Shown: positions 25,178 through 27,604 of the stretch, piece by piece
Position numbering within the stretch: position 1 is the stretch's first letter
How the letters are laid out: every line of letters starts with the position of its first letter
NCBI RefSeq assembly: GCF_002860325.1
Contig: NZ_PKOJ01000002.1
Span: 496,001 to 560,000 of the forward strand
DNA length: 64,000 nucleotides
Direction: 5' to 3'
Origin: Neptunicoccus cionae
GTDB lineage: Bacteria; Pseudomonadota; Alphaproteobacteria; Rhodobacterales; Rhodobacteraceae
Notes under the pieces: generated by a model
Seen by the model: the letters and a program-made list of their open reading frames with translations, nothing else
Database searches by the model: none
What the model was told of the DNA's origin: nothing
Program-made: the position numbers and the translations under genes

Positions 25178-26104
25178 TTACACACCCAGACAGTGCCGCA
25201 TGACGGCTTTTTGCGCGTGAAGCCGGTTTTCTGCTTCGTCGAAAATCACCGATTGCGGGCCGTCCATAACGGCGCTGGTAACTTCTTCGTCGCGGTGCGC
25301 AGGCAGACAATGCATGAACAGCGCGTCCGGTTTGGCCTGCGCCATCAGCGCCTCGTTCACCTGATAGGGCCGTAGCTGGTTGTGCCGCCGCTGACGCGAG
25401 GACTGGTCGTCGTGCATGGACAGCCATGTGTCTGCAACGATCAGGTCCGCGCCTTCTACAGCCTTACCTGCGTCCCGCTCGATCGTCACATTGACACCCT
25501 GCTCCCGTGCCAGACCGATGAACTCTGCTTCCGGGTCCAGCCGTTCCGGCCCCGAGAAGGTAAAGTCAAATCCGAACTGACCGGCAGCATGAAGGAAAGA
25601 GGCACAGACATTGTTGCCATCCCCCATCCAGACCACTTTCTTGCCTTTGATCGGACCACGGTGTTCTTCATAGGTCATCACATCCGCCATGATCTGGCAG
25701 GGGTGGGTCCGGTCCGTCAGACCGTTTATCACCGGCACATCGGAAAATTCCGCAAGTTCCAGCAGGATGCTTTCGTCAAAGGTGCGGATCATGATCATAT
25801 CCACATAACGCGACAGCACCCGCGCCGTATCGGCAATGGTTTCACCGTGGCCAAGCTGCATTTCCGCCCCGGACAGCACCATTGTCTGCCCGCCCATTTG
25901 GCGCACGCCCAGATCAAAGGACACCCGCGTGCGTGTGGAAGGTTTCTCGAAAATCAGCGCGACCATTTTATTGGCGAGCGGCTGTTCTGCATCCGGAGTA
26001 CCTTTGGACTGGCCAAGGCGGGCCTGCTTCATAGCGTTAGCCTGATCCAGAATATCCCGCAGAACGGCTTTGTCGGTTTTGTGAATGTCCAGAAAATGGG
26101 TCAT
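25178..26104 (-). CDS. argF: Ornithine carbamoyltransferase
   Basis: This 308-residue enzyme makes citrulline from ornithine and carbamoyl phosphate, the sixth step of arginine synthesis. The carbamoyl-phosphate site STRTR is at residues 56-60, HPCQ follows in the first half, and the ornithine-loop HCLP is near the C-terminus. Length is typical. Its ATG overlaps the argD stop by four bases (ATGA), so the two arginine genes are translated together and share any upstream control. Confidence 0.97.
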
Positions 26105-27279
26105 TGTGCTGCCTTCAATTGTGTTGCGGCCTGATCCAGCAGATCAATGGCCTGACCGATCTCGGCCTCTGAAATGTTAAGGGGGGGCAACAGGCGGATC
26201 ACATTATCTCCGCCCGGTACCGTCAGAATACCTGCGTCATAACCTGCACGCACGACATCAAGATTGGTAACCTTGCATTTCACGCCGATCATCAGGCCAA
26301 GTCCCCGCACCTCTTCGAAAATTTCGGGATGACTTGCGACCAACCCTTCGAGCTTCTGCCGTAGCAGTCCCGATTTCGCGGAGACTTCGCCCAGAAACTC
26401 CGGTGTTGCAACAATATCCATCACGGCGCCACCCACAGCGCAGGCCATCGGGTTGCCGCCGTAGGTTGATCCGTGCGTACCTGCCACCATCCCGCTGGCC
26501 GCCTCTTCAGTGGCCAGACAGGCGCCAAGCGGAAAGCCTCCGCCGATGCCTTTTGCAACAGCCATAATATCAGGGGTCACGCCGGACCATTCGTGAGCAA
26601 ACAGCTTGCCTGTCCGCCCCATACCGCACTGGATCTCATCACAAATCAGCAGCAGACCATGCTCGTCGCACAGGCTGCGCAAGGCTTTCATCTTTGCGTC
26701 CGAAACCGGCACGATACCGCCTTCGCCCTGCACAGGCTCGATCAGGATCGCTGCGGTTTCGTTGTCAATTGCGGCTGTAAGGGCTTCGTCATCGTTAACT
26801 TCAACATGGACAAAACCGGGCAACATCGGGCCGAACCCTTTGGTCAGTTTCTCAGCCCCGGCAGCGGCGATCATGCCGAGCGAACGGCCATGGAAGCTGT
26901 CTTTGAACGCGATGATCTTGTACCGTTCAGGCTGGCCTTTATGGCTGAAATATTTCCGCGCCATTTTCACCGCGCATTCCATGCTCTCGGTGCCGGAATT
27001 GGTGAAGAACACCGTGTCTGCAAAGGTTGCTTCTACCAGTTTGTCCGCCAGCGCCTGCTGGTTAGGGATCTGGTACAGGTTGGACGTGTGCCACAGCTGG
27101 GTCGCCTGATGTTGCAGAACTTCCACCAGTTTGGGATGCGCATGGCCAAGTGCGTTCACCGCAATGCCTGCCCCCATATCGAGAAAGCGGCGGTCCTGAT
27201 CATCCACCAGCCAGCTTCCTTCGCCTTTGACAAACGTCAAAGGAGCGCGCGCGTATGTAGGCAGAATTGCGGGGATCAT
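26101..27279 (-). CDS. argD: Acetylornithine aminotransferase
   Basis: This 392-residue class III PLP-dependent aminotransferase converts N-acetylglutamate semialdehyde to N-acetylornithine in arginine synthesis. It can also serve lysine synthesis in some bacteria. The PLP-Lys is in [14 protein letters not shown], the cofactor-binding [13 protein letters not shown] comes earlier, and [13 protein letters not shown] precedes the Lys. ATG 27279 is chosen because AAGGAAAA lies about seven bases upstream; the frame extends 57 bases further into a hairpin region. A short ORF with four Arg codons and hairpins lies upstream, suggesting attenuation control. Confidence 0.96.
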
Positions 27280-27460
27280 CAGGATTTTCCTTTTCTTAAA
27301 AAATGAAGCCAATCCGTGCCGGATTGAAAGCATCAAGTCAATTGTGGATAGGGGGTTGGTTCAAACAAACGGATACGGGCCCGCGGGTGGGGCCTTCTGG
27401 ACGTTAGCGTCGGCGTCGCGACGAAAGGGTATCGTTGGTCATGAACATGCGAACCGCATA
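27280..27460 (-). promoter_or_regulatory. Candidate arginine attenuator/leader region of argDF
   Basis: Read on the minus strand, this leader holds in order: a hairpin AUGCG-GUU-CGCAU at the start of the leader ORF (27447-27459); the ORF ending in CGA CGC CGA CGC TAA; a GC stem GGCCC/GGGCC (27378-27394); the segment GUAUCCG (27371-27377); and a stem CAAUCCG-GCA-CGGAUUG (27310-27326) followed six bases later by UUUUUU, just before the argD ribosome site. AUCCG at 27371-27375 can pair with the right arm of the last stem, so alternative folds are possible. The layout resembles transcription attenuators of other amino-acid operons. This is inference from sequence only. Confidence 0.45.
27404..27448 (-). 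CDS. Putative arginine leader peptide (MFMTNDTLSSRRRR)
   Basis: A 14-codon ORF (12 codons if the second ATG at 27442 is used) ends in four consecutive Arg codons and TAA, 125 bases before argD on the same strand. Arg-rich short ORFs ahead of an arginine biosynthetic gene are what an attenuator leader would look like. The ribosome-binding site is weak. A six-codon ORF from 27459 (MRFACS) has AGG upstream, and its TGA overlaps the second ATG, which could couple translation. Expression is unproven. Confidence 0.5.
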   Translation of the reverse strand: MFMTNDTLSSRRRR

Positions 27461-27604
27461 GGGCCTGTTTGGGCGCTTGTCCAGTAAAGATCGCGCAAGA
27501 CCGGATTTTGCCCGCCCCCGCTGGCTGCAGGTTTGCCGCTTGCTGCTTGCAGATCACAGCCGTGCGGGATAGGTCCGTGCTATCCCTTACTTAAGGTTAT
27601 TTCC

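Follow-up and report, generated by a model that had tools for sequence, protein, structure and literature searches.

A conserved arginine-codon leader ahead of argDF in Rhodobacteraceae as a putative attenuator

Ribosome-mediated attenuators are well described for the trp, his, leu, ilv, thr and phe operons, and Vitreschak et al. are said to have described those of proteobacteria in 2004. To our knowledge, arginine is absent from the list of proteobacterial attenuators. In tnaC of E. coli, the ribosome is held at the end of the leader ORF beside a Rho-loading site, in an arrest on free Trp that acts via the peptide. Leaderless polycysteine ORFs of mycobacteria were reportedly described by Canestrari et al. 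in 2020.

We analysed a window (the whole stretch of DNA under study, 64,000 nucleotides long) from Neptunicoccus cionae, in which an initial annotation had pointed to a short ORF with four Arg codons before argD, followed by a GC stem, a CAATCCG-GCA-CGGATTG stem and six Ts. All are present, the ORF at 27448-27404, the stems at 27394-27378 and 27326-27310 and the Ts at 27303-27298. The ORF reads ATG TTC ATG ACC AAC GAT ACC CTT TCG TCG CGA CGC CGA CGC TAA on the minus strand, with a gap of 124 bases between its stop and the argD ATG at 27279. Judged by sequence comparison, its reading as a putative arginine-sensing leader before argDF is well supported. The genes and the leader are arranged as follows:

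25178..26104, minus strand: argF, ornithine carbamoyltransferase (NCBIfam model passed), overlapping the argD stop
26101..27279, minus strand: argD, acetylornithine transaminase (NCBIfam model passed)
27378..27394, minus strand: GC stem GGCCC-CACCCGC-GGGCC, 3' of the leader stop, with a 7-nt loop, read in the window
27404..27448, minus strand: leader ORF MFMTNDTLSSRRRR with its stop, probably leaderless, predicted transcript start 27448
27407..27418, minus strand: Arg run CGA CGC CGA CGC, read in the window and conserved in the family

Like the proteobacterial attenuators, this locus has a short ORF with end-product codons ahead of a biosynthetic operon and a hairpin near the gene, but here the amino acid is arginine, no conserved U-tract or antiterminator was found, a separate promoter adjoins the gene and the ORF looks leaderless. 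By analogy, we consider the mycobacterial polycysteine ORFs and the orf34 leader of Salmonella the nearest in design. The former carry a run of end-product codons near the stop, according to PMC9031893, and for the cys leaders PMC1262725 indicates no conserved terminator, a suggestion of Rho made in 2005 and candidate Rho sites that are not conserved. Both share with the argD leader the codon run near the stop, the lack of a conserved terminator and the suggested role of Rho, and the mycobacterial ones also the leaderless start; they differ in their Cys codons, in belonging to Actinobacteria and in the non-conserved Rho sites, whereas the C>G bias of the argD leader is nearly universal. The orf34 leader of speF senses arginine through consecutive Arg codons and undergoes Rho-dependent termination, as PMC6386406 describes, and would resemble the argD leader in both respects, Rho-dependent termination being proposed here. 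It differs in its 34 codons with Arg at 12 and 13, its ornithine decarboxylase gene, its gammaproteobacterial host and its RNase G switch, all according to the same paper. Also named as a Rho-dependent parallel in PMC1262725, tnaC differs in that free Trp acts through the peptide, whereas the argD leader is proposed to sense a shortage of charged tRNA. Among Alphaproteobacteria, rnTrpL/peTrpL of Sinorhizobium meliloti is a 14-codon leaderless leader ORF that starts at the AUG of its transcript (PMC10117765), with Trp there and Arg here; we claim no sequence relation. In the same order as our locus, uORFC-8-2, the cysS leader of Rhodobacterales, likewise has tandem end-product codons, but these are Cys codons ahead of an aminoacyl-tRNA synthetase gene, and a 3' U run is present in all cases (PMC8632094). 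Searches of an open PMC library, whose scope leaves out subscription journals, brought up no report of argD preceded by an arginine leader. The Arg-codon leader ahead of argDF is probably a variant build of an arginine attenuator.

The initial annotation had suggested aligning argD upstream regions across Rhodobacteraceae. We applied one fixed rule that ignores codon identity (an ATG ORF of 6-24 codons with at least two consecutive Arg among the last nine and a stop 88-210 bases before argD) and recovered a leader in 140 of 166 genomes, the Arg run, the stop and their position being kept in most genera. The first set of 117 genomes (105 with a leader) consisted of 8 loci of the own genus and 109 loci from the best 150 of 292 argD matches; the 49 held-out genomes (35 with a leader) were the 40 remaining loci among the matches listed (including L198) and nine other argD of the own genus, the 142 lower-scoring matches of the 292 lying outside all counts. 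The share fell when the held-out set was added (105/117 to 140/166). In the first set, the same rule was satisfied by 4.9% of shuffles, by 10/117 regions on the reverse strand and by 2/116 regions further upstream, and at argD of other alphaproteobacterial families by 2/40. The 166 genomes bear 149 genus labels, and the leader occurs in 132/148 outside the own genus and in 8/18 within it, one of these eight being weak. Amylibacter-like members of the own genus have no leader. With the leader absent from 26/166 genomes, including 10/18 of the own genus, it must be dispensable; it appears to have been kept in most genera and to have disappeared from some members of the own genus. Loci without a detected leader that retained TTGAC before argD include L007, L009 and L245-L252 under the own genus label (L246 with only 155 bases upstream) and the named Amylibacter loci L043, L046, L048, L061 and L078; such leader-free relatives form a natural test of what replaces the leader.

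A run of four CGN codons with TAA or TGA directly behind it, as in CGNCGNCGNCGNTRA, turns up 25 times in this genome of 4.29 Mb, against 23 occurrences of the reversed control. The string of an Arg run plus stop is common genome-wide, and its rarity lies in its placement ahead of a given gene. The earlier argument that chance would hardly put an Arg run here stands for the place and for the conservation across genera, which settles that the leader is more than chance, but not for the string, which is not rare.

The codon choice in the run was counted on the 105 leaders of the first set and the 35 held-out ones, because leader choice in the set of 120 leaders introduced below carried a small bonus for CGACG. 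CGA opened the run in 132/140 leaders (98/105 and 34/35, respectively). The 489 run codons comprised 260 CGA, 203 CGC, 23 CGT, 2 AGG and a single CGG, the latter found once among 364 codons of the first set and not at all among the 125 held-out codons. For comparison, CGA and CGG make up 5.7% and 26.5% of the Arg codons of the window, and 10.8% and 23.6% of those in long ORFs of L001-L037. The most frequent run was CGA CGC CGA CGC, and another common form was just CGA CGA. A single tRNA decodes CGA, CGC and CGT, and a different one decodes CGG; avoidance of CGG, common in these genomes, and a start with the rare CGA would be expected if the charging of one isoacceptor were the signal, and the leaders amount to a natural experiment in codon choice. 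Arginine is kept with other bases in variants such as CGA CGT CGA CGT or CGA CGT AGG CGC (L187), and broken runs also exist, such as RRRH (L152) and RRRG (L035). Since the rule selects in-frame Arg runs, this keeping of frame is partly by construction and cannot serve as independent evidence of coding.

The set of 120 leaders was built from 157 upstream regions, of which 150 had distinct last 150 bases; 121 had both a leader and TTGAC, and one was excluded for an odd distance to P2, the promoter beside argD. The leader ORFs in this set measure 9-22 codons, and the run ended 0-4 codons before the stop in 115/120, where the rule permits at most about seven. Aligned on the leader ATG, the 120 regions exhibited a T-rich -35 signal at -36..-34, T/A at -12, A at -11 and C/T at -1. 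The corresponding elements of the window, TGGACA-17-TATGCG-6-ATG, are:

27455..27460, minus strand: -10-like hexamer TATGCG of promoter P1, 6 nt before the leader ATG, at a family-wide signal
27478..27483, minus strand: -35-like hexamer TGGACA of promoter P1, 17 nt from the -10, at the family-wide T-rich signal

A P1 score of at least 7 of 9 was reached at 55% of the 120 leader ATGs vs. 1% of background positions. The promoter survey PMC8407463 finds 17 bp and 6 bp to be the most frequent spacings. An SD-like 4-mer preceded the leader ATG in only 10/120 regions and argD in 118/120. From this low count and the placement of the P1 signal we infer a transcript start at the leader AUG; the leader transcript is very probably leaderless and made from its own promoter P1.

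Between the leader stop and P2 lies a spacer of distinctive composition:

27342..27403, minus strand: C-rich, G-poor spacer, candidate Rho-loading region, 26 C and 12 G in 62 nt
27348..27360, minus strand: G-free tract ACCAACCCCCTAT directly before P2, low in G across leader genomes

C exceeded G from the leader stop to P2 in 119/120 leader genomes and in 30/31 held-out ones, compared with 39/120 for regions upstream of P1, 11/25 for leader-free genomes and 55/99 for the upstream regions of other genes. A rut-like stretch of 78 nt (spaced Cs, C/G of at least 1.5) was present in 114 of the 120 leader transcripts, the controls giving 9/120 upstream, 4/19 in leader-free genomes, 8/33 in the outgroup and 0/120 on the reverse strand. 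The share of G in the 13 bases before P2 was 0.10 with a leader (n=120), 0.27 without (n=19) and 0.31 in the outgroup (n=33). Rho-loading sites are characterised by a C-rich, G-poor composition. The spacer is a candidate for such a site, having the composition expected of one, composition alone being no proof of Rho.

The elements found beside argD are:

27336..27341, minus strand: -35 TTGACT of promoter P2, with TTGAC conserved at this place
27313..27318, minus strand: -10 position of P2, CACGGA, without T at -7, aligned with GATACT of other Alphaproteobacteria
27310..27326, minus strand: hairpin CAATCCG-GCA-CGGATTG overlapping P2 (z -2.4), classed as terminator-like
27298..27303, minus strand: tract of six Ts, read in the window

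TTGAC was recovered 54-94 bases before argD in 114/117 genomes of the first set (5.7% of shuffles) and in 43/49 held-out genomes, 157/166 in total; of the 12 genomes in the first set that have no leader, 11 carry it as well. When several TTGAC were present the first was taken, and P2 is misplaced in a few genomes (e.g. L018, L023). In other Alphaproteobacteria, TTGAC preceded argD in 33/40 genomes, mostly further upstream, and 26 of these 33 had a near-consensus -10, typically GATACT, at the right distance; their argD (L199-L238) mostly has TTGACA-N17-GATACT and no Arg leader. A near-consensus -10 of P2 was present in none of 120 leader genomes and in 1/19 leader-free relatives. The -10 position of leader genomes is mostly CACnnA, with the A at -11 retained and the T at -7 lost, a pattern shown, according to PMC8407463, by most of the alphaproteobacterial promoters analysed there. 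We thus predict a second conserved promoter, P2, adjoining argD, also in most leader-free genomes. Near P2, GGCAC-N10-GC could by eye be taken for a sigma-54 site; this reading was set aside because other Alphaproteobacteria have a near-consensus sigma-70 -10 there.

The explanation that we favour, and hold to be probable, is a leaderless Arg-codon attenuator that gates read-through from P1 into argDF, probably in a Rho-dependent way, with P2 adding a basal contribution. P1 would begin the transcript with the first base of the leader AUG, and a ribosome would translate the short ORF ending in Arg codons, CGA first, nearly all of them readable by one isoacceptor. With plentiful arginyl-tRNA, the ribosome would finish and leave, exposing the C-rich, G-poor RNA past the stop; transcription would then end short of argD, most likely because Rho loads onto the exposed spacer, with the help of hairpins in some genera. 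When arginyl-tRNA is short, the ribosome would stall at the Arg codons next to the stop, so that the loading site would be covered or the folding shifted, and polymerase would continue into argD-argF. P2, beside argD, would supply basal expression of argDF, and since it can transcribe the operon bypassing the leader, the attenuator may govern only part of that expression. Points against the model are that a stalled ribosome would mask just part of the C-rich region, that 26/166 genomes do without the leader, that a conserved antiterminator was not found and that no such leader was seen before argJ, argG, argC and carA of the own genome.

Part of this picture departs from the initial annotation, whose idea of an arginine-sensing leader we retain and whose terminator and single transcript running through the leader we do not. 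The predicted P2, lying downstream of the leader in 157/166 genomes, argues against a single transcript. A transcription start downstream of 27404 had been named as a result that would speak against attenuation, and P2 is predicted to be such a start for part of the transcription.

The classical form of attenuation, in which an Arg stall would free an antiterminator, the CAATCCG stem and U6 otherwise terminating before argD, and argDF would lie on a single transcript, appears unlikely, although the hairpin beside argD does track the leader. Its fold at the P2 offset had a mean z of -1.46 in leader genomes (n=121), -0.41 in leader-free genomes (n=19; p 5e-4 against leader genomes) and -0.16 in the outgroup (n=33; p 2e-6), and in the held-out genomes -1.23 with a leader (n=31) and 0.02 without (n=12). 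The hairpin is thus not merely a by-product of the promoter, folding better with a leader than in leader-free relatives and outgroups. Against termination by this stem, it spans the spacer and the -10 of P2, and the U-tract is not conserved even inside the genus: T5-T6 is found in L001-L003 (five Ts in L002 and L003), which suits the classical form, and is absent in L004, L005, L006 and L008, and the longest T run after the hairpin averages 2.5 with a leader and 3.3 without. The earlier identification of the CAATCCG stem with U6 as a terminator is thus borne out as to a hairpin linked to the leader, but not as to a conserved terminator. A terminator-like hairpin with at least 5 Ts was present in 27/120 regions (23%) vs. 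8% of shuffles, so intrinsic terminators may be used in some genera. The GC stem sequence is retained only in the closest relatives L002 and L003 among seven aligned.

RNA pairing was likewise of mixed bearing on the classical form. The strongest pairing in the leader, in its favour, is the hairpin itself (T5 x T3, mean z -0.90 vs. shuffles), and the hairpin's 3' part is a weak partner of the Arg run (-0.28), which also pairs with the second half of the spacer (-0.40). Leader codons 1-6 pair with the second and first halves of the spacer (z -0.61 and -0.47), and the two spacer halves with each other (-0.27). The 5' part of the hairpin, however, had no pairing partner in the spacer or the leader clear of shuffles (best -0.18, SE 0.10). 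A ribosome-masking model leans in the direction expected of the classical form, the probability of the P2 hairpin going from 0.69 with the ribosome at the stop to 0.63 when it stalls on the first Arg codon; the shift exceeded 0.2 in the expected direction in 19/120 genomes and in the opposite one in 9, compared with 35 and 26 of 240 shuffled spacers, whose mean change was 0.01. Clade-wise RNAalifold on four small clades found no shared antiterminator structure, gapless covariation of the P2/hairpin region gave no clear nested set of pairs, and the complete leader folded no better than shuffles (z -0.43). The modelled pairings are suggestive and define no antiterminator, so that the extra segment earlier proposed to pair with the right arm of the next stem receives weak backing from the small masking shift and the weak pairings, without the antiterminator being convincingly shown. 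By eye, the last Arg codons seemed to match the bases directly behind the stop; a stem score of at least 5 was reached in 53% vs. 40% of shuffled sequences, a slight excess on which we base no claim. Many MIK-type leaders (e.g. L017, L118) have AUGAUCAAACG within codons 1-4, able to pair over a long range with CGUUUGAUC located 3' of the stop; translation of the leader by a ribosome would open this pairing.

We consider it quite unlikely that P1 yields an independent small RNA or small mRNA acting in trans, via its C-rich region or its peptide, with P2 alone driving argDF. Such an RNA would suit the leaderless promoter of its own, the C-rich tract free of G and an argD equipped with its own promoter, and rnTrpL/peTrpL of Sinorhizobium would be a precedent (PMC10117765), but the Arg codons and the place beside argD favour control in cis by arginyl-tRNA. 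It is very improbable that what has been conserved is a protein-binding site on DNA or RNA (CGACGC repeats) or a promoter structure, with an incidental ORF, for although CGACGCCGACGC is strongly conserved at the nucleotide level, P1 would place the transcript start exactly at the ATG of the ORF and the variants noted above keep arginine with other bases, an argument weakened by the partly built-in frame and the RRRH and RRRG runs.

The leaderless attenuator above basal P2 can be extended into a fuller scheme, which we offer tentatively and regard as possible rather than probable. In it, a family-wide arginine attenuator would gate Rho entry onto the C-rich spacer through a leaderless, CGA-headed run read by a single tRNA, and would have been joined to the ancestral promoter of the operon, whose core would have been remodelled so that the same DNA serves as a weak promoter and, in read-through RNA from upstream, as a hairpin; the whole would stand in for ArgR in Rhodobacteraceae. 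A search for ArgR (PF01316) detected it in 0/100 genomes of the family, the own genome included, and in 9 of 14 control genomes, in agreement with the earlier statement that ArgR is usually absent from this group. If the attenuator is real, a conserved Arg-codon leader would explain control without ArgR at the argDF step in a large marine and model group, and arginine would join the amino acids whose own biosynthetic operons are controlled by a leader peptide.

Upstream of argJ, argG, argC and carA of the own genome no such leader was seen, and Rfam gave 0 matches at the gathering score over the whole window. The commonest dipeptide before the Arg run was HI (31/939). Leaders of the form ...HIRR... 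(L155, L027, L255, L259, L262) resemble the HIRR core of ORF34 (PMC6386406), the SpeFL/ORF34 leader peptides (DUF2618) being marked by HIRRT..HIMM, a likeness that is probably convergent.
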